Assembly: GCA_000310025.1 (NCBI GenBank)
Contig: FN649749.1
Coordinates: 2,325,209-2,389,208, forward strand
Origin: Ectocarpus siliculosus
Taxonomy: Eukaryota > Sar > Phaeophyceae > Ectocarpales > Ectocarpaceae
Reading direction: 5' to 3'
Length of the DNA: 64,000 bases
Both the position numbers and the translations under genes were made by a program. The notes below the pieces were generated by a model. That model saw only the letters and a list, made by a program, of their open reading frames with translations, was not told where the DNA came from and did no database searches. Positions 16,760 through 51,600 of the stretch are shown piece after piece (the stretch's first letter is position 1; every line of letters begins with the position of its first letter).

Positions 16760-17950
16760 GTGCTTGCAAAGAGCAGGATCGGTTGACATCGACCAAGGCG
16801 ATGCTCAGCGTTGGGTCACTCCTCTGATGATGGCCACTCACGTGGGTAACTTCCGCATAGGAAAGGCCCTGATCGCCAACGGAGCCAACGTGTCAATGGT
16901 GGCCGTCGACAGCAGTCACACGGCCATCCATGCTGCACTATAATACTGTGCTGATGATCGGGGCTGGTGCCGACCTCGAGGTCATGACATCTCAAGGCTC
17001 CACACCGCTTCACAAGGACGCATTAGAAGGGAGATCTGAAGTGGTGGGAGTGATGATCAGGGCACTCGCGAATCCCAACAGTCGGATGTTATGCGGAGCG
17101 GCACCGTTGCACATCGCGGCTCAGTTCGGACCCGCGAACGCGACGGGGGAGCTGCTTCGTGGGAAGGCGAACCCGTTCTTGACCAAAAAAGGGAATTCAT
17201 CATCGGGGGATACTGCCATCCCAATGGACGTAGCCGTCCAAAATGGGCACTCGGACGTGGTGCGCAAGCTAGTCCAGTGGAGAGGTTGTGGTGTCGCAAA
17301 TGCCGGCAGTCAAGCTTGTCAAGCGCTCTTTTTTGCTGCGTCGGAACAACACCTGGTCATCATGGCCATTCTGACTGGAGCAGGCGTGGTGGACTGGGTG
17401 GGCCTATCTCTCTTGGGTGCCGCCGAAAGTGCCCTTGAGGCATCCGTCAAGTTTCTCTTGCGGCAACGGTACCACGAGAGCACACGGAGCGTTGAATACT
17501 CGTACGTCAACGCCAGCGACACTGACGGCTGGACGCCCCTGGCTCATAGTATTCAGCGGTGCTGTTCGCACGCCGCCAGGATCATACGTTTGCTATTTGA
17601 CGCGGGAGCAGATGTGGCATCGGCTGTTCGAGTCACAAATTCGAATGGACAACAGGAATACTCCGGGACGCCTCTGGCTGTCGTGACGTCGTGCATCCGT
17701 GAGAAGGTTTTAGCGAACGGCACGCCCGCTACGGAGGAGCACCTGTACATGCTGGAGGCCATCGGTCGCCTGCTGCTGTTGGAAATCGAGGGTGTCTTGG
17801 ATGTGGGCAAGCGACGCTCCCCTCATCGGCCATGCTGGACCACCGCTGATGCTTATGTTGCCGACCCTGCAGCTACGGAAACAGCGACGTGGCGTGCTTG
17901 CGGCAGCGATCTTGAGGTGGGGAGGGCGACAGGTCACTGAATGTACGACA
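16760..17950 (+). pseudogene. Ankyrin-repeat protein pseudogene (coding sequence split over three frames)
   Basis: Ankyrin repeats bind protein partners. Here the repeats can be read only by changing frame. Frame one (about 16780-16935) reads DIDQGDAQRW, TPLMMATHVGN and ALIANGANVS, ending HTAIHAAL then stop. The next frame (16940 to about 17810) resumes with GAGADLEVMTSQGSTPLH and continues through GAAPLHIAAQFG, AIPMDVAVQNGHSDVVRKL and IIRLLFDAGADVASAV. A third frame (about 17830-17950) carries a basic C-terminal block, PTLQLRKQRRGVLAAAILRW. At the first break, part of one repeat is missing between HAAL and GAGAD. Two frame changes with lost residues and no splice sites between them indicate a dead copy. 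An alternative is one or two sequencing errors in a live gene of about 380 residues. An intron acceptor near 16770 may mark the exon start. Confidence 0.8.
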
Positions 17951-20432: not shown

Positions 20433-20945
20433 AGATACCTGGGGAGCGGGGTGAGAACGATTTTGTTTCTAGGGAACGTATACGTCCCACCGTCGTCGAA
20501 GAAAGTCGCAAGCAAGGCGCAGGAAAACTTCGCACAAATTGGGGAAGATGTCCAGGGGTTTAGTAGGAAGGGAGAAGTTGTCATGGTTGGCGATTTCAAC
20601 TCCAGAGTAGGGAAAGCTTCCAGTAGAGGACAGGCGATCGGGCAGCACGGACAAGACAAAGTGAATGGCAACGGAGTGAGGATGCATGAATTCTTGGGAA
20701 GCAACGAGCTGATGGATTTTACGGTAGGAGGGAATGCGATAAGCCGGAGTTCCCCCGGCAAAGGGCAGTTTGCAATGAATACTCCATCCTCGACTACATC
20801 CTGGTAGATAGGGGAGCACACAGATCCCAGAGCTGCACGTAAGTGCGATAGATATAGGTTCGACCGACCATTTCTCATATGGGCAAACATTGACCGATCT
20901 AGAAAGACGGAGAGTGAGAAACAGAGGAAAGTATTCCGTTGGAAA
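20433..20945 (+). pseudogene. Frameshifted endonuclease (EEP/APE-type) domain of the LINE
   Basis: In the first frame GNVYVPPSSK, GEVVMVGDFNSRVGK and MHEFLGSNELMDFTV match the central part of the exonuclease-endonuclease-phosphatase fold that nicks the target, with the GDFN metal-site motif. That frame stops at 20805. The expected continuation (YSILDYILVDRGAHRS) lies in another frame from about 20775. The STDH motif and the following LIWANIDRS lie in different frames again near 20855-20880. At least two or three indels are therefore needed to explain it, so the domain is inactive in this copy. The N-terminal catalytic strand is missing. Confidence 0.8.
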
Positions 20946-20954
20946 GTAGAACGT

Positions 20955-23012
20955 TTGGGAGACGAGGGGACACGGGATGAATTCCAGAAAGGACTGGCTG
21001 GTAGTGTAGAACTCTTCAGGAAACTGCTGAGAAGCGTCGAAGACGGACAGGTAGACGTACAAGCAGCAGGGGACAGGGTGATTGAAGGATGGGAGTCCAT
21101 CGTGAACACAACGGCAGAGAGAGTAGTGGGAAAGAAGGTGGTACGATGTGGGGTATCGGTTAAGTGGTGGGATGACGAGCTGAAAGAAGAAATAGGGGAA
21201 CGTAGAGAAGTCTTCAAGCAGTACCTGAGTGAGGGGTCTGAGGAGAGATGGGAAACGTACAGGGCCAAGAGGAAACAGGTGAAGGGACTAGTGAAAAAAA
21301 AGAATAAATTCATTTGGGACGAAGTAGTGCAGAAGGCCGACGGAGGCCTGGAGGGGAACGCCAAGCAGATGTGGGAAGGGATTAGTGGAATGGTAAAAAA
21401 TACCGCGCAAGGGGGGGATACAGGGGTAGCAACTTTGCGAGGTGTGAACGGTGGATTAGTCAGCAGTGGGAAGGGAAAAAGGGAAGTTCTAGCAGGAAAC
21501 TACAAGAGACTTGGAGTGCCTTCGGAGAACGAAGCTTTTGACCAAGTGTTTAAGAAGGAGGTGGACGAATGGGCCCAGAAAGAAGAAGAGATATCGAAGG
21601 CAGACGTTGGGAACGTAGAACTAGAGAATGAGTTCACTGAGGACGAGGTTGAGGCGTGTGTGAACAAGTTGCAGTGCCACAAAGCAGCAGGGGCGGATGG
21701 GATAGTCAACGAGTTCATGAAGTTTGGGGGGAATGGGATGATCCAGTTGATGGTACTGCTGTACAACTCGGTGTGGAAAAACGAGTATGCGCCAAGTAGA
21801 TGGAGGGGAGGAGGAATTGTGAACTTGTCTAAGAAAGGAGACAAGACTGACCCAGGAAACTACAGGGGTATCACACTGTTGAACACAGTAGGAAAAGTGT
21901 TTTGTAAGTTGCTGAAAGATAGAATAGTGGGAGAATTGGAGAAGGAACGAGGCATTAGTGAGGGCCAGGCAGGTTTCCGACAGAAGAGGGGGTGCGAAGA
22001 CCACGCATTCACGGTAGGGAGAATCATCCAAGGTAGAAAGAGGGCGGGAAAGCCGACGTACTGCTTCTTCCTGGACGTGAAAAAGGCATACGATACCGTA
22101 TGGAGAAATGGGCTGTGGAAACAATTGTCCAAGTACGGGATCAAGGGGAAAATGTGTAGAGTGCTGAAGAAGATGACAGAGGGTACGAAAAGCGCGGTCA
22201 TGCTAGACGGAGAACTGTCTAAGTTCTTCGACATTGAGCAGGGGGTCCCACAAGGTTGCACGCTGTCCCCAACATTATTCCAGATGTTCATCAACGATCT
22301 GTTGGAAGTCGTAGAGGCAGTCCGGAAGGGAGTAAAAGTAGGGGACACGGAAACTTCGGTGTCGGGAATGCTGTTTGCGGATGATTTTGATGGTACGTCG
22401 GAAACCCCTGAGGGACTGCAACTTCAAATTGACGCGGCGAAGAAGTTTACTGATAAATGGAGATTGTCTGCCAACGTTAAGAAGAGTGCCGTCATGGTAT
22501 GCAACGAGGACAGGGAGGAACCAGTAGAACATAGATGGAAGTGGGGGGTCGAGGAGATTGCAGTAGTGGACCAGTACACATACCTCGGAGTAGAGATCGC
22601 AAACGACTGCTCGTGGAATGCACGCATGTCCAAGGTAGCGGAAAAGGGCAAAGCACGAGCAGGGAAGCTGCACCCAATACTCGCAAACCGGCACCTCGAT
22701 ACACGCATCAAATTGGCGGCTTTGAAGAGCGTAATCGTACCGCCGCTAGAGTATGCCGGAGAAGTATGGGAAGGAAATAAGAAGGTAGTGAAAGAACTAG
22801 AGGCGGCGCAGATGAAAGCAGCGAAAATCATCCTAGGATGCTCCAAGCGCACAAGTAATGCAGCCGTAAGGGCAGAATTGGGGATCCAATCCCTACGGTC
22901 GGGAAGAGACGCAAGGAAGTTGACATGGCAGTATCGCATGTGCGGGATGGGAGAGGAGAGGTTGCCGAGAATAGTATGGGAGGCGAAGTGGGCAAACAAT
23001 AAAGAGGGGTAG
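20955..23012 (+). CDS. LINE reverse transcriptase domain, open 685-codon frame
   Basis: RNA-templated DNA polymerase of a non-LTR retrotransposon. Blocks in order: KAAGADGIVNEFMK (fingers), GGGIVNLSKKGDKTDPGNYR, EGQAGFRQKRGCEDH, the metal-binding FFLDVKKAYDTVWR, QGVPQGCTLSPTLFQMFIND, the catalytic FADD in GMLFADDFDG, and YTYLGVEI in the thumb. The downstream region continues with LKSVIVPPLEYAGEVWEGN and LEAAQMKAAKIILG, as in LINE-like elements. FADD replaces the commoner YADD, which is normal for this class. The frame is open from about 20900; the Met at 20955 is a convenience, not a proven start. It stops at 23012, where the intact element would read on, so even this part is probably non-functional by itself. 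Confidence 0.88.
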   Translation: MGDEGTRDEFQKGLAGSVELFRKLLRSVEDGQVDVQAAGDRVIEGWESIVNTTAERVVGKKVVRCGVSVKWWDDELKEEIGERREVFKQYLSEGSEERWETYRAKRKQVKGLVKKKNKFIWDEVVQKADGGLEGNAKQMWEGISGMVKNTAQGGDTGVATLRGVNGGLVSSGKGKREVLAGNYKRLGVPSENEAFDQVFKKEVDEWAQKEEEISKADVGNVELENEFTEDEVEACVNKLQCHKAAGADGIVNEFMKFGGNGMIQLMVLLYNSVWKNEYAPSRWRGGGIVNLSKKGDKTDPGNYRGITLLNTVGKVFCKLLKDRIVGELEKERGISEGQAGFRQKRGCEDHAFTVGRIIQGRKRAGKPTYCFFLDVKKAYDTVWRNGLWKQLSKYGIKGKMCRVLKKMTEGTKSAVMLDGELSKFFDIEQGVPQGCTLSPTLFQMFINDLLEVVEAVRKGVKVGDTETSVSGMLFADDFDGTSETPEGLQLQIDAAKKFTDKWRLSANVKKSAVMVCNEDREEPVEHRWKWGVEEIAVVDQYTYLGVEIANDCSWNARMSKVAEKGKARAGKLHPILANRHLDTRIKLAALKSVIVPPLEYAGEVWEGNKKVVKELEAAQMKAAKIILGCSKRTSNAAVRAELGIQSLRSGRDARKLTWQYRMCGMGEERLPRIVWEAKWANNKEG

Positions 23013-38034: not shown

Positions 38035-41000
38035 TCACCCTGCTCCGCTCCCGCTCCCCAAGACGGCTTTCACGGCCGCCTCCCCTGCTCTTGCCGCTTC
38101 CGCCGCCGCAGTTGCCGCGGCTTCCACCTCGATCAATACCGCTTCCGGCGGCATTGTGCCGCCAGCCGCGGCTCCTGATTGTGGGGCTCCGTGGGCCTCA
38201 GGCCCACCTTCGAGGAAACTCGCAGCAGCATGTGTGAACGATGGTGTCGTTGATCTGCAACAATTAAAGCCGTGCAAGTGCATAGTCGTATCGTTGATGA
38301 ATGCAGTCAACAAACGGATTCTCTTCTGTTTTTTTGCATTAGCATGTTCTCCAGTGGTTCACCGCTCTCGTTCCGTCCAAATCGGCTCCAGACGAAACAT
38401 GCATACCCGCGTTTTAGGCGACTACAGACGTTGGACTTTCCTCAAACACGGACATGCCATTACCTAATCTATGCGTGAGGCACTAATTTCCACCGTCTAC
38501 GTGAATTGGAAAACTTTTATGCCGCCGCCTACTCCGCCGACAGCAGCACTACCTGGCGGCCGCGCGGTCGAGCATCTCGTCGCCCTCCTCCGGCGTGAAC
38601 ACCCTCGGCATGCGCGACGGCGGGGGCAAGACGTGCGACATTTTGGCGAAGTAGCCGCCTTCCGTCCAGACTCGAGAAAGCCGCCCGAAGCTTCGGAGAG
38701 CGATGACGTGCTTGACGGCTTGTAGGCGGGTGCCGTACGTCCTTCGCTCGTGTTGCAGCAGCAGCTCCACCATACATGGGAATATCTTCGTGCATTTCAG
38801 ATTCAGTGGGAGTTCGAGGGAAGAACAAGACTGATCAGCCAAACACGCAAGTCGCGCCCAACACTGAGTGATTGAGGGACACCGCCTTCTCTGTAAGTCG
38901 TGTATATATTGTTTGTTCGGGTCGAAAGAGCGACAGGCGTCAAACATCATGAAATTCATTAAAAGACTATCTCAATGCTCGGCGAGACCGAATGGTGTAG
39001 AGTCTGATCGAGAGAGGCGAGAGAGAGAATAAAAATACAGCATCCGGCGACGCTCCCGAAACACTCATGCGGGACGACATCGAACAGCCGCGCAAGCGCG
39101 CACCACACATTGTCGGGGACACGTGTTTTCGATTTGTCTTACCCACGTTGTCGCAGCTGGGCGCTACCAAACCTAGGAAACCATCGCTGGTGGGAGAACA
39201 GGTGGCTCAAGCTTTCGCTAGGGGTCGTACCGTGAAACGCTCGTAGTTGATGACGTCCCTGCAATGCTTTGCCCTCGTCCTCTGCAGCCATGAAAGTATC
39301 TCTCTGTGCTTCGCCTCGCTTGAGACGTACACAGGGGGCCTCCTGGGTTGCAACGCGTTCTTGGGGGGCGCACTAGTGCTGTCAGCCGTCTCTGGCACCG
39401 TCGACGCAAGTGTTGCACGTGCGGAACCCTGGCCGCCACCACCACCAGTATCATTTTCGACCTTCTTTTCTCGACCGACCACGCTCTTCTGGCGCTTCGG
39501 ACGGGTTCTTCCTTTCTTTTGGCCCCCCTGCCCCCCGGCGCCTTTTCGCCGATTTGGGCGTTTGTTGCTGCTCGGCGAATTTGATGTTGCCGGGGTCGTC
39601 TCTGCTGTTCCAGGTCGTGACGGGGGCAGTGAAGCTTTGGATGGCGGTCTTAGCATCGCCGTTGTCATCAGCGGCAAAGGAACAGGAGGGTACAGGCGGT
39701 CCCAGTGCCGATTGAGAAGTGTGAGGTGGGACGTCATGCAGGCCATGCGCCGTCTCACCACGGCCTGGAGGTGTCGAGTACCCCAATTGACCCGTTGAGC
39801 GTAGCGGCCGATGGCGTTCGAGTTGGTAAACGCGCTCAGAGCCCCGATGATAATCTTAACCGCTCTATTGCGCCGACGCTTGAGGGCCATCTGGCTCATG
39901 AACCTTGTTACGATGGCCATGCGGCTGTGTGGTGCCGTAAGAAACGGGAAACAGAACGGGGCATGAAGCGCATTGACGGGACAAGCAAGGATGTGAATGC
40001 GATTCAGGAGAGTTCGACTGGAGTACCGTTTCCTGACATATCTCGATGCCTAGGTGATGTGCCAAACCGCCCCAATCCATCTGCAGACTATTGTGGCTCT
40101 GATTTGGCCGATAACAGAAAGGAAAACAGATTATCCCCGTTCGAACTTGGAACTTGTCTCACTTCATGTTCGCTTCCAACAGATGTTGACGGGCGGCCCT
40201 CTCCACCGCTCCTTGCTGACACAATGCCGTACGATCGCAGGCAAATGGAGATATCGTTATCGTCCGCGCCATGCACAATATGTGGCATTTTCTCATCATG
40301 TGTAGCCTATAGTTGGGAATAATGGCCATCATGACCTCGGGAATAGCGCACGCAACAAACCTTTTGCGGACAACACTGAAGTCTGAGGTGTTTTTCGAAG
40401 GAGAGAGTGCAGAGTCGAGAAAAATAACGAGTAGTGCGTACATAACGTGATTTTTTTGCATGTACAGAACTCACCAAGAACAAGAGGCGCTTGATGTTGG
40501 CGATGATAGCCGTCCAGGTGCGAACGATCCCACCTGTGCGGGTAAACAACCTTCCGTGCACAAGCTCAGCAAAAGCGCGATCCCGTTCCGCCTTGCAAGT
40601 GCGCATCTCTCGGTTGGCCATAGCCCTCGTTGAGATGAGGGACAGTTGTGTGGTCTCCCGAGAGCGCATGACTTTCGCTCGCCTGCCCAAGCAAGGAAGT
40701 ACCTTTGAAATACAAATCGTGGGGTACTGCAACACAGAGAGACATGATCGTTTTCATAGGAATTATTTCTGTTTGGGGTGTCGGCGCGTGTACTATGTTA
40801 TCACGCTCGCGGGCTCTTGTCGAGAGCGTGTTGCACAAAGGAGTGACTCAAGTTCCTTGATTATTAGAGGGGTTTAACGAGTGACAGACGTGAGCAAGAA
40901 GAGGCAAAGCCTGCTGCACCAAGTCTGTCTATCATACCCATATCTATCTCATCTGCGTAACCCCCTCGGAGATCTCGGATAATTGTATCCTGCCGTGTAC

Positions 41001-44000
41001 ACACACAAACAGCCCCCCTACTCGGTACGAGATACGATCTACGAGATCCTCCGTACATAACGCCAGGTAAAACGGCAACAAATCTAAAAACCATTCATCT
41101 TTCGTATCGACAAATAAATCATCTCAACTCCCGGATCTATCGAATATTCAAGTTTCAGGTTACTACTCCTCCTACGACTATGGAACTTCACTAAGAGTCT
41201 TAACAAGCACCCCTCTCGGGAAAATGTCGTCACCACATTCTCAAGTAGTCAAACACAAAGATTTATCCTTGGAATATTACTCAGCAAAGATCAACATTAC
41301 ATCAGAGCCACGTCATAAAGACTCTGGACGGACAACTCTGGCAAAACGCGTCAACAAATACCTCGAACAAAACCCTCGCACAAAACTGTGTTTCAACTCA
41401 TTGACCAATTTGAACTAAGCTTCGGAAGCACATAGGCCTCAACCATGTCTTACCAAAATATGTCAAATCCTTCCTCCAATACATCGTTCAGAACAGTCAT
41501 CAATACCTAATACATGCGGCACAATTAGACAAACGTTAAAAACCCGGCGTTCAAAGACGCCAGAGGAAACTTTCGCCAATTATTATGCCGTTTCTCAAAC
41601 ATCCAGACATGGACTTCTTGACAGCCCCCCTGCTGCATCATCGCCCAAAACATAAAAATTTAACAGCCCCCCTGCTGCATCATCTCCCAAAACACAAACG
41701 CTAACAGCCCCCCTGCTGCAACAACTCTCGGATCCAAACAACGAGAAATCAAACGAATATCATGAAGTTACCTCCGAACTCCGCGGGAAAAACGCGGAAT
41801 CGCGAATAAACAAGAAATAAATGAATTTCTTATCCTAGCAACGAGGAATCAGACAAGTATCATGAAGTTGCCTCAAACTCCGCAGGTAAACGCGGAATCG
41901 CAAACAAACAAGAATTGAGGGCTTCTCCTCATTTTCCGCAGGTAAAACGCGGAAAACGTGAACAAAATGAACAATCAAACCCGAACGTCCGCTAGAACTC
42001 TGCTTGTACTGCGGCGAAGATCATGGCATCTGAGCATCACATTCATCCCCCCCCATGATTTTCGACAGCAGTGCTAGCAGTGACCCAACAACATCAACTG
42101 CACCATTCGGCGCGGTGAAGTCCTAGACTATGCACACCATATCCTTGACAAATGAAAAACACGTGTACCACAGACCATAAACACCACTTTCGTTCGTGCG
42201 CATCGCAACACAGCAGCCTACGTCGACGCAGTTCTCAAACTCATGGCTTTCAACAAACAAAATCGACCCAGAAAATAGAAAAACCAAATGAACATAATTC
42301 TCACGAACGTGCCTGAATCGCGCTTAGACTCATGGTGCAACCACCGGTCATCTCGCACGGTAGCTCCCGAACACGTAGCCTCTCAATTCATGCCGCACCC
42401 TTCCAGCCACGATCGAATGTCCAGCCCTGGCATTACCCCCCATCGTCCCGCACCACGCAGATACCATTGTACACGGTCGGATGGGCGCCGGGATGCCCCG
42501 CACCCGCACCCGCACCCGCAGACAACGCCACGAAGCTGCCGTCGCCGCTGCCGCCGTTGCTGTTGCCGCCTTCGCCGCCATTGTCCAACCAACAGCCATC
42601 CTCATCGCACGCGTCCTCCGCTTCTTGCGCTGCTCGTGCCGGTGTAGCTGCCGATGTGGGCACTGCGATCGCCCCCCCAGTTGATACGGCGGGGGGTATC
42701 TGGCCGCAGGTCGACGAAACCTCCAGTGCCACCGTTCCTGCAGCTGACGGCGTCCCGGCCGTTCCCCCCATCGACGATCGTGTTTGGGGTGTCGGCGCGT
42801 GTACTATGTTATCACGCTCGCGGGCTCTTGTCGAGAGCGTGTTGCACAAAGGAGTGACTCAAGTTCCTTGATTATTAGAGGGTTTAACGAGTGACAGACG
42901 TGAGCAAGAAGAGGCAAAGCCTGCTGCACCAAGTCTGTCTATCATACCCATATCTATCTCATCTGCGTAACCCCCTCGGAGATCTCGGATAATTGTATCC
43001 TGCCGTGTACACACACAAACAATTTCAATAGATGCTCACTGCTCTATGGGAGTATTCAGTGCTTTCGGCATGATCGTCGAAAGCGCTATCAGTTCTTCGA
43101 AAGGATTGCCGACGTCCCTCGAGCCCATCGATTTCCGTGTTCAACGCCAGGTCTACATGTGGAACACCCTTGGGTGAACCAAGAGTCTTCCGAACACCAG
43201 CAGGTCTCCAGAGGACCCTGGCTTGGCCGGGTTTCCCACCCATTCTAAAGTTTTGCTAAAACGCCCACGGAACACCCATGGACCGCCCATGGGCACTTTG
43301 TTGCCCATGGTTGACCCATGGGAAGCCGATGGGCGGCCAATAAGAACCCTTCTACCGGAACTAGTGTGCTCCTAAGCAATAGATTACCTGCTTTGGAACG
43401 GGCATTATAGCGGCTAATAACCCTAACCCTAACCCTAACCCTAAGCCCACACGATACATGCTAGGTTGGCGCTGGTGGCTAAGTTCTAGGTTGAAGGGCA
43501 AGCTGAGGTCTAGGTTGACATGCTGGTGGCGCAATTCTAGGTTGAAGTGCTCACGGTGGACACTTCATGGGCCGTCCATGGGCATGCCCATGAGTCACTC
43601 ATGGGCAGCACATGGGCGGCCCATGAAGTACCCATGGGCAGCCCATGGGTGACTCATGGGTGTCCCGTGGGCGGTTTAGCAAAACGGGTCTTAATGCGAT
43701 GTCGTTACATCGGCTACCAGAAGCAAACCCTCAACGTCATCTGTTAAACAAGTTTTCAAGCTAGCAGCCCTGGGCAGGGACGTACCTGATCGTGTTTGTT
43801 GGAAGTTGTTGACGACTCAAGTGCCTTGAAGGCTACGGCTCTAGAAGACAGTTCACTTGCACGATTCAGTGCAGCGTATTCGTACGTCGAGACACCAGGC
43901 TTAGTTCGTCGACCAGATGTCTGTGTTTCCAATCCGATTATTTATGGTCCGGCGAAAATATGGGTTTCGATAACAGCCGGAATGAAGATCGAGATGAAAG

Positions 44001-48658: not shown

Positions 48659-51600
48659 TCAACACTTCCACTTTTCCCTTCGCATACGCAGAATTCTCCT
48701 TCGAGCAAACGGAAAATAGTCGGCGTCTTTGTGGCATTCGATCAAAGAATCACGGAGGGATAAGAGCGAGAAAGAAACGATGCCATGTTTCACGATATTT
48801 TCTCGATTCTCTTGATAGACAAATGTCCTCCGTGTACCATGTTCGATGTTTACCTCGTCCTCGGAGTCTGGCTGCACCACCAGGCCGAGGTCGACCTGGG
48901 CCTGGAGCTCCTGCAGGGTGAGATTTGCCAGGGACATGCTGTCCCTGCGGTGTACGTACTTGTTCTTGTACTTGACCGATCGGTTAATTACCAGCAGGCG
49001 GTAGTAGTCCACAAGAATGCAGCCGCAGGTCGCGCCTTTGCCCTGACCGTGGTCTTTGGACGTCGAGAAGACCGTGAACACCTAACAAAAACAACCCATA
49101 GGCAAATGCTTATTTGTGCGATAAAAGCGAAGTTGGTCTGTCATGGTTCGTTGGTCGGAGCCTGTTGCCGTCCATGCTGTGGTTGCTGCCTTCTGCGCCG
49201 TGTACGACACTTGGCTAGGTCTAACGCAATAGCAGTCGGAAGAAGCTCGCCGTTGATACGCATGCTACCAAACGTCGTTCAAGAAACAGTTCGTGATAGT
49301 CTAGCTTGGGAGGAATACCCTTGTTTCTCCGTGTTCCTTGGCGGGTTAGTCGAGACGAACCGCATGTATCATATTCCGTTTCGGAGTGTTCGTCGCTGCT
49401 TCCAATAGCTGCATTGTACATGCAGTACTCTCGAAAGGTCCCATCCATCCATCCATCTACAAGAAATGCGGCAAAGACCATTGTCGACACGCTTCCGAGG
49501 ATCGTTATGTACATCTCCGTACCAAGTTTCGAGCAAAACGGAGGGGCCTAAACGCGCACCTTCGCCCCCTTGCTCAATGACACCCCCTCCGAATGTGCTT
49601 CATGTGCGCGCACGATATAGCTGAGGTTGCCCTGTGTGAGGAAATCGTCGATCGCCTTCGTACCGAAGCAGATTGCTCCACCTCCCCGCAAGCTTTCGCC
49701 GAATCCTGAATCTTCCAAGGCTAACTCCTACGTTCCCATGTGAAATCAGTTCACGAAGTTCAGAACAAGACGAAAGCTAGCTTTCAGGTAAGAGACCGAA
49801 CACAAGATCTGAAACACGGGACTCAAAACGTGGCACACCACGCAAGCAGAAAACCAGGATCAGCAAACGCGGCAATCAAACGAAAGGGGGAAAGCTGGAG
49901 AAGGGGAGAAGTCAGGTTCCAAGCCAAGATTGGTGCCCTTGCAACGAGATCTGACCACATCGAAAAAAAGTACTGATTTACTATTGAGGCATCGATGTCA
50001 GAGAGTGGCGCCTAAACCAACCGCTCATTCGAAGGCTACCCTGCCTCACAATGAGATGCGTCCATATTACCTGCTCGTCCTTAGCAGGGTCTGACCACAT
50101 GCAGTCCGAGGCCACCTGCTGTGACTCGAACGTCTCGCACTCGTTCGGAGGGCACACGCTCGCCACCGGCGGCACGCACATGATGTCCTGGGGATTAACA
50201 CACCAAGGGTCACGTAAATGGTGCTTCCGTTCCAGAAGTTATTTCATCTTCCGCCCACCGACCGCGGCGAGGTTGTTCCGGTTTGGAGACTGCGAATGCG
50301 ACCGGAAGCAGATAGTCATAAATTGATAAATAGCAAGTGCTCTTGCCGTACTCATTCACTTCGAGGTTTATTACTATGTAGATGGGATCTTCCGGGGGGC
50401 TGACCTGTATACGAGAAGTCGAGCCCTCAAGCGGGCGCGGGATGCCGCCGTGCACGCAAAATATGTCCTGATCAATCACCCCCGCGAGAGGCAGCCGGTC
50501 GAAGACGGCGTTGCAAGACTCCCACACTTTCTCGCCAAGAGCCTCGCCGAAACGGTTCTGACCGAGGAAGGTAAACGCGGGGAGGAAGGAGTCCAGCGGT
50601 GCACCGAGAAATAGCACCAATGACGGCATTTCGGGAGCAAACCGTTGAGTCATCACTTGTTGTAGCACATTCAGGCAGGCAAGTATAGCAGGGTAACGCT
50701 GGAGGCAGGGACACATAGTACACATTCGAGTAGCGTTGCAAATGAGACACAGCCAAGCAACGTTCACGTCGACTAAGGCCATAACGCAACTGAAACGAAT
50801 AAGAATCAGTCTCCTGTCGTATTGGGGTAAGACCGAAAGCGAATGTCAGATATTGGTTAGTCCGGAGGATCACATGCGTGTACTGCGGTAGGTCTCGACA
50901 TTGGCGCGAACGCACACCTGGCATTGCCACAAAAATGACCTCTCCCCGTAGTGCTCGATCCAGCCGTTCACGTCTCTCAGCTCGTGATTGCCCCGGAGCA
51001 TGAACATTTTGTCGGGGTTCTCGATCTGTCGCGAAGGCAGCAGGGGTGGACCTTACCGAGATGTCAACAACATCGGTACCGGGACTAGACGACAATCCTG
51101 GCTGGTCATCTTCACCTCCGTCAGAGCGCAGAGACAGGAATGTGGTAGATAGAATAATGGAGGCGAAGACCATAGCTACAAGCCGGGCACAGAGGCCAAG
51201 TCAAGGTGAAGGGTGCTGCGATCGACGTGCCTCGCGTGCAAACGTTTTGCCTTGTCCATGCTGGGACGCCACTTTTCAGCATGAGAGTGAATGTGCACCT
51301 CCATTAAAAGTTCTACACAGAAAGGTTGTTCTAAACATCGTCGGGCGCGCAAACGAGAGGCGTAGGCTCGGTTTGCTGCACATGCGTTGCAGCATCGTTG
51401 TGTCCGATACCTCCCCGAACTTCCCTTACCTTGAGGGAAAACAGGTAGGCCAGACACTCCAGACCCTGCATCCCTCTGTCCACGTAGTCTCCCAGGAACA
51501 GAAACTTGCCGGCGGTTACATTCATCCCCAGCTTCCACATATTGTCGGCAAAGAAATTAAGATCCTGGATGGAGCCACGATAGGTTATGGTAGCGGCGGG

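Follow-up and report, generated by a model that had tools for sequence, protein, structure and literature searches.

A leaderless Ty1/copia copy in a putative intron of Ectocarpus siliculosus, and breakpoints recurring at the long terminal repeat border of its family

Introduction

What kind of intron, if any, did a recently inserted retrotransposon enter, and in what state did it arrive? These questions are raised by a 64,000-nucleotide (nt) stretch of Ectocarpus siliculosus DNA (assembly GCA_000310025.1, contig FN649749.1, positions 2,325,209 to 2,389,208; hereafter the window), in which an element with two long terminal repeats (LTRs) occupies 2252 nt of the minus strand (40770-43021), in the same sense as a proposed gene. 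A preliminary description had presented it as a very young insertion that inflated a 56-nt intron between exons 6 and 7 of this gene, and as a clean case for testing the effect on splicing. Were the 56-nt model true, the locus would offer a neat natural experiment on intron definition versus exon definition. The explanation that we favour overall, with moderate confidence, is a different one: a Copia complementary DNA (cDNA) that had been shortened beforehand inserted in sense into an intron of about 802 nt of the minus-strand gene.

Results and discussion

The element and its family

The length and coordinates of the element, its 5-bp ATTTC target duplication and the single indel between its LTRs were all as first described (Table 1). 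The two LTRs show no substitutions over 241 aligned nt and are separated by one 1-nt gap, an extra G at 40869 that is found only in the left LTR when compared with the 12 other aligned copies. The sequence GAGTAGGGGGGC, which we take to be the polypurine tract, adjoins the sense 3' LTR, and the element was assigned to the minus strand because of this tract and the remains of gag. Three tandem units containing CAGGGGGGCTGT, the core of which resembles the polypurine tract and LTR border, lie further inside and, judged from their sequence, might serve as extra plus-strand priming sites.

A genome of 189 Mb in 492 contigs was searched for relatives. The LTR query returned 195 candidates, the best 40 of which were scored as matches, and an exact 19-mer from the sense LTR end occurred 69 times. 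All 12 other two-LTR copies that were read carry 5-bp duplications, that of copy L021 falling within a run of G. Because LTR matches are found across the genome and these duplications recur in 12 of 12 copies, the element is a real insertion and not a chance match. The 12 copies measure 3522-4824 nt, and their LTR pairs differ by 0-5 mismatches. A search of viral contigs with the LTR pattern gave no match.

The coding content of these relatives allowed the family to be assigned. Copies L019 and L020 contain gag-like open reading frames (ORFs) of 683 and 727 aa, on which Retrotran_gag_2 was matched at 8.4e-6 and 2.2e-4, both under the Pfam cut-off. A 472-aa ORF is present in L032, L033 and L021; in L033 it matches RVT_2 (5e-42) with rve upstream (7.5e-9), which is the copia order. 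As relatives with the same LTR carry gag, or integrase and RVT_2, the family was assigned to Ty1/copia (Pseudoviridae). The window copy itself shares with this group its paired TG...CA LTRs, its 5-bp duplication and the polypurine tract at the sense 3' LTR, and differs from it in lacking both pol and leader: no integrase and reverse transcriptase genes were found in it, in contrast to L033, and the long gag ORF of L019 and L020 is reduced to the gag end. No primer-binding site follows its 5' LTR, the leader where such a site would fall being deleted. On its sequence, we regard the window copy as a non-autonomous deletion derivative of a Ty1/copia family and not as a complete member.

Non-autonomous LTR elements in which two LTRs enclose an interior lacking an intact gene are known as TRIM and LARD. 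The window copy is alike in this arrangement, but it is an individual deletion copy of 2.25 kb with gag remains and not one of a uniform amplified family, as judged over 68 LTR ends. TRIM was rejected as a class, given that the 12 other two-LTR copies are 3.5-4.8 kb long and that long ORFs are present in L019, L020 and L021, the three examined for ORFs.

In Ectocarpus sp. 7, the Copia families Copia-N1_Ec32 and Copia-11_Ec32 are reported to carry a single gag-homologous ORF (PMC12477816). The window family is a Copia family of the sort described there, the likeness, drawn from the description, being that of brown-algal Copia families that were recently active. The window copy differs from these gag-only families in having lost the leader and most of gag, and its LTR is common to pol-bearing copies.

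Recurrent junctions beside the 5' LTR

The alignment with L019 covers the first (left) 2008 nt and the final 245 nt of the window copy, and approximately 2 kb of L019 lying between these parts is missing. The loss reaches up to the 5' LTR and takes in the leader together with most of gag, so that the copy can probably no longer move. Its joint retains 3-4 nt of the 8-nt spacer CGATATCG, 1 nt being common with the gag side. Together with its borders this spacer forms a 12-nt perfect palindrome, CACGATATCGTG, at the boundary of the 5' LTR and the leader.

Leader junctions were then surveyed in LTRs having the exact 19-mer, and 68 of the 69 LTR ends found were read. A script sorted them into 20 leaders, five jumps and 43 others. 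The five jumps were the window copy, whose own junction was seen once, together with L021, L023, L028 and L064. Copies L021, L023 and L028 likewise lack the leader and the upstream coding part and keep 1-7 nt of spacer; their inner breakpoints differ from one another and fall within repetitive sequence upstream of the RVT_2 frame. All four leaderless copies among the 68 LTR ends break at most 8 nt from the 5' LTR, within the palindrome, and share 0-1 nt at the junction. In L064 the leader is preceded by a duplication that covers 31 nt of the LTR end and the spacer. Two of the 43 ends classed as other, L061 and L111, are older head-to-head LTR pairs of 68-82% identity joined via CGAT, and their almost identical inner breakpoints suggest that they may share an origin. 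Abnormal inward junctions numbered seven out of 27, all seven breaking at most 9 nt from the LTR.

These breakpoints bear on how the window copy was shortened. In our preferred account, minus-strand synthesis would have halted at a point within gag to which the end of the plus-strand LTR copy (the LTR with 3-4 nt of spacer) would then have been joined; the cDNA would thus already have been short at insertion, devoid of the leader and most of gag, and probably dead on arrival. The alternative, which we consider unlikely, is that the 2-kb loss came after integration through ordinary recombination unrelated to reverse transcription, a course compatible with any intron model. A later internal deletion would equally leave the LTRs and the duplication intact, and L118, where part of the leader is lost at a more inward break (near leader position 60, in a repeat-rich stretch), speaks for such deletions and against our account. 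The clustering of the four leaderless breakpoints at one LTR edge, with different inner points, argues in the opposite direction: with breakpoints uniform over 180 nt, the chance that four of four fall within the first 9 nt would be about 6 in a million, a figure that is illustrative. Seven of the leader alignments end at 170-186 of 200 nt.

As to why this border should break repeatedly, we tentatively propose that its palindromic sequence might make cDNA ends pair or re-anneal wrongly, yielding a steady supply of leaderless, tandem-bordered and head-to-head LTR copies. It is equally tentative that copies so derived would still integrate but never move again, the window element being one of them. 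Deletions beside the 5' LTR have a counterpart in human immunodeficiency virus 1 (HIV-1), where 5'-leader deletions in proviruses were ascribed to template switching during reverse transcription (PMC10014112). The HIV-1 deletions are 21-22 nt long and lie further into the leader, one of them favoured by short GAG repeats, whereas that of the window copy spans about 2 kb and ends in the spacer against the LTR (PMC10014112). A literature search, at the level of titles and abstract openings, showed no description of joints clustered in an LTR-leader spacer, which is a weak negative.

The loss of leaders in this family is the less ordinary part of the case, and it outweighs the intron insertion in significance: breakpoints recurring in a single spacer of 8 nt point to a specific failure of plus-strand transfer, of a kind that can be read from genomes alone.

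Two further observations were made at this border. Copies L080, L095 and L113, which were counted as leader and may be related, read CGATATCGTGTTTGGGG in their leaders, with TGTTTGGGG in place of TGGAG, so that a 26-nt perfect palindrome is created across the LTR border. The old head-to-head LTR pairs joined via CGAT that lie at L121 518-852 and L122 640-1074 resemble snap-back products of reverse transcription.

Age of the insertion

The insertion is recent and its target duplication is intact. Over 2010 columns covering the left LTR and the inside, six private substitutions were listed relative to the 12 other copies. Discounting those at 42778 and 42781, on the edge of the junction, four remain, plus two 1-nt insertions. 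With the Ectocarpus mutation rate of 4.07e-10 per site per generation (PMC10254074), four substitutions correspond to approximately 5 million generations, and the LTR pair gives a 95% bound of approximately 15 million. The initial label of very young consequently holds relative to the family, in that the LTRs have no substitutions, and not as an absolute age, which is loosely bounded.

The host intron

The preliminary description placed the element in an intron running from 43039 to 40727. Its sequence facts were reproduced: the interval is 2313 nt long, subtraction of 2252 and 5 leaves 56 nt, the insertion falls 13 nt inside the proposed donor (GTGAGCATCTATT then GAAAT), and the frame is open up to 43040 and onward from 40726 in phase 0/0. 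That these two positions are the ends of one intron is a matter of gene modelling. The minimal intron, which calls for an exon that ends at 43040 and another that begins at 40726, was assessed through its splice sites, scored with generic matrices, and through coding scores and gene-finder paths.

At the downstream end, the acceptor TGTCTCTCTGTGTTGCAG/T (AG 40728-40727) is good, 118 of the 7629 AGs in the window being as good or better, and it was retained 38 nt downstream of the insertion. The upstream end is less distinctive. Of the 8141 GTs, 919 are at least as good as the donor GCA/GTGAGC at 43039. Nine AGs were tried as exon 6 acceptors; the best of them (43152) and the second best are equalled or surpassed by 822 and 906 of 7629 AGs, respectively. 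By comparison, only 17 of the 8141 GTs are as good as the donor CAG/GTACGT at 43785, which lies in phase 0 and in frame with exon 7. Since exon 5 joins exon 7 in phase 0/0 through this donor, exon 6 is not needed. The resulting intron is 3059 nt long at present, and about 802 nt once the element and one duplication are subtracted.

Coding scores were compared with those of random open frames of equal length, a first coding profile having been dropped on account of its bias by dynein composition. Exon 6 scored -4.8 (null median -6.3, 95% point 4.7), exon 5 -5.8 (null median -5.8) and exon 4 -22.5 over 209 codons, which per codon is similar to the nulls of the other exons. Exon 7 scored +2.0 (null median -10.5), a value reached by 15.2% of random open frames; in finer steps its frame scores highest from about 40690-40660 down to the donor and drops just past it. 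Because of these scores for exons 4-7, the whole upstream gene model is shaky. With an intron penalty of 6, the element is spanned by two of the printed gene-finder paths, both of which join 43786 to 40726, and exon 6 appeared in none of the printed paths of the penalised gene finder.

Intron lengths were also considered. The five gaps between dynein exon matches in the window are 220-605 nt, the median intron on Ectocarpus autosomes is given as 524 bp (PMC12477816) and averages in three brown-algal species as 530-740 bp (PMC6418280).

On the strength of splice ranks, coding scores, gene-finder paths and brown-algal intron lengths, we prefer the long intron, at modest odds. The host intron was most likely an ordinary one of about 802 nt before the insertion, reaching from 43785 to the AG at 40727. 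A family presumably mobilised by its pol-bearing members would have delivered one cDNA, in sense, 38 nt upstream of the good acceptor of a minus-strand gene, into an intron that would already have held an older fold-back repeat, and the element would be removed together with the intron.

The 56-nt intron appears improbable to us. It has GT...AG ends, phase 0/0, a good acceptor and a frame open from 43255 through the donor, and retention of the 56 nt would bring a stop at codon 5, so that splicing would be required. Set against this are the ordinary donor and acceptors of exon 6, its lack of coding signal, the frame that is kept when it is skipped, and a length far under those typical of brown algae (PMC12477816; PMC6418280). 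Of the earlier claim, the recent insertion is supported and the minimal intron is unproven, and to call the locus a clean test case is premature.

It is also rather doubtful, though conceivable, that no coding exon lies upstream at all, in which case either exon 7 would contain the gene start, with an ATG near 40668 or 40620, or the model would be wrong, and the element would sit in a promoter, a 5' leader or intergenic DNA. The exon 7 frame score climbs only from about 40690-40660; the scores of exons 5 and 6 resemble those of random open frames, exon 4 being similar per codon; and none of the top models printed at penalties of 9 and 12 crosses the element. On the other hand, spliced upstream exons are suggested by the strength of the acceptor at 40727 and of the donors at 43785 and 44160.

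Several results count against the account that we prefer. Per codon, exons 4 and 5 score no better than exon 6. The two printed spanning paths at penalty 9 use 44161 to 40682 and 43388 to 40726, and no printed path spans the element at penalty 12. Some parses of a first gene-finder run, which over-predicted tiny exons, did use an exon with its end at 43040, but linked it to spurious exons within the element. The splice-site matrices are generic, so that the ranks make the 56-nt model less likely but still conceivable, and the training set of the coding model consisted of 2000 dynein codons. Pfam searches with seven window ORFs, two of them from within the element and five from outside it, gave nothing over the curated cut-off (best weak E 0.086-0.22); of two ORFs compared with PDB, one had a non-significant match (E 0.66) and the other none; and a search for a second genomic copy, limited to the 280-aa ORF at 39207-40049, returned the self match alone. 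For the leader of the relatives, one exact pattern found no matching transfer RNA 3' end.

Phage records searched with one ORF gave no match, and a 237-aa piece gave three pattern matches in viral contigs and no relative. An empty site was sought via the right flank (43022-43330), the left flank being unsearched, and the 44 matches, with the best 40 of 66 candidates scored, were the locus itself and pieces of the fold-back repeat.

As an intron insertion, the event is an ordinary one in a transposon-rich, intron-rich genome, since 81% of Ectocarpus genes are reported to carry one or more genic transposon insertions, whose effect on expression is small, and intronic transposons are described as routine in brown algae (PMC12477816).

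Table 1 Features of the element and of the proposed host gene (positions in the window)
Feature	Position	Strand	Remarks
3' LTR in sense (left in window)	40770..41011	-	242 nt, TG...CA
5' LTR in sense (right in window)	42781..43021	-	241 nt, TG...CA
Target-site duplication ATTTC, copy 1	40765..40769	.	5 bp
Target-site duplication ATTTC, copy 2	43022..43026	.	5 bp
Presumed polypurine tract adjoining sense 3' LTR	41012..41023	-	GAGTAGGGGGGC then TGTTTG
Internal region	41012..42777	-	gag end and 3' non-coding part; 99% identity to matching part of L019, L020
Deletion junction	42777..42780	-	3-4 nt of spacer CGATATCG beside 5' LTR, joined to gag, 1 nt shared
Three tandem copies with CAGGGGGGCTGT	41618..41739	-	core resembles polypurine tract and LTR border
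Proposed exon 6	43040..43168	-	open frame, unremarkable splice sites, no coding signal
Exon 7	40475..40726	-	good acceptor and donor
Alternative donor CAG/GTACGT	43784..43785	-	phase 0, in frame with exon 7
Older fold-back repeat	43229..43706	.	arms 43250-43294 and 43641-43685, 87% complementary; right edge estimated

Neighbouring features

The fold-back repeat sits within the alternative intron. Its arms are rich in CCCATGGG, an interstitial CCCTAA run lies inside it (43421-43444), and pieces of it are dispersed in the genome at 69-97% identity among the matches scored.

Elsewhere in the window, a plus-strand open frame of 734 aa at 20808-23012 resembles, by eye, a non-LTR (long interspersed nuclear element, LINE) reverse transcriptase, and a plus-strand frame at 16873-17940 encodes ankyrin repeats (Ank_2, E 6.3e-16). 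The EsV-1-7 motif family is expanded in brown algae; a genome search for its cysteine motifs gave 880 candidates, of which the best 150 were scored, all 150 matching, which suggests a brown-algal genome. Finally, an exon-like stretch on the minus strand at 48854-49081 scored highest for coding among seven tested exons, with 19.1 over 75 codons, and may belong to a different gene than the exons near 40 kb.

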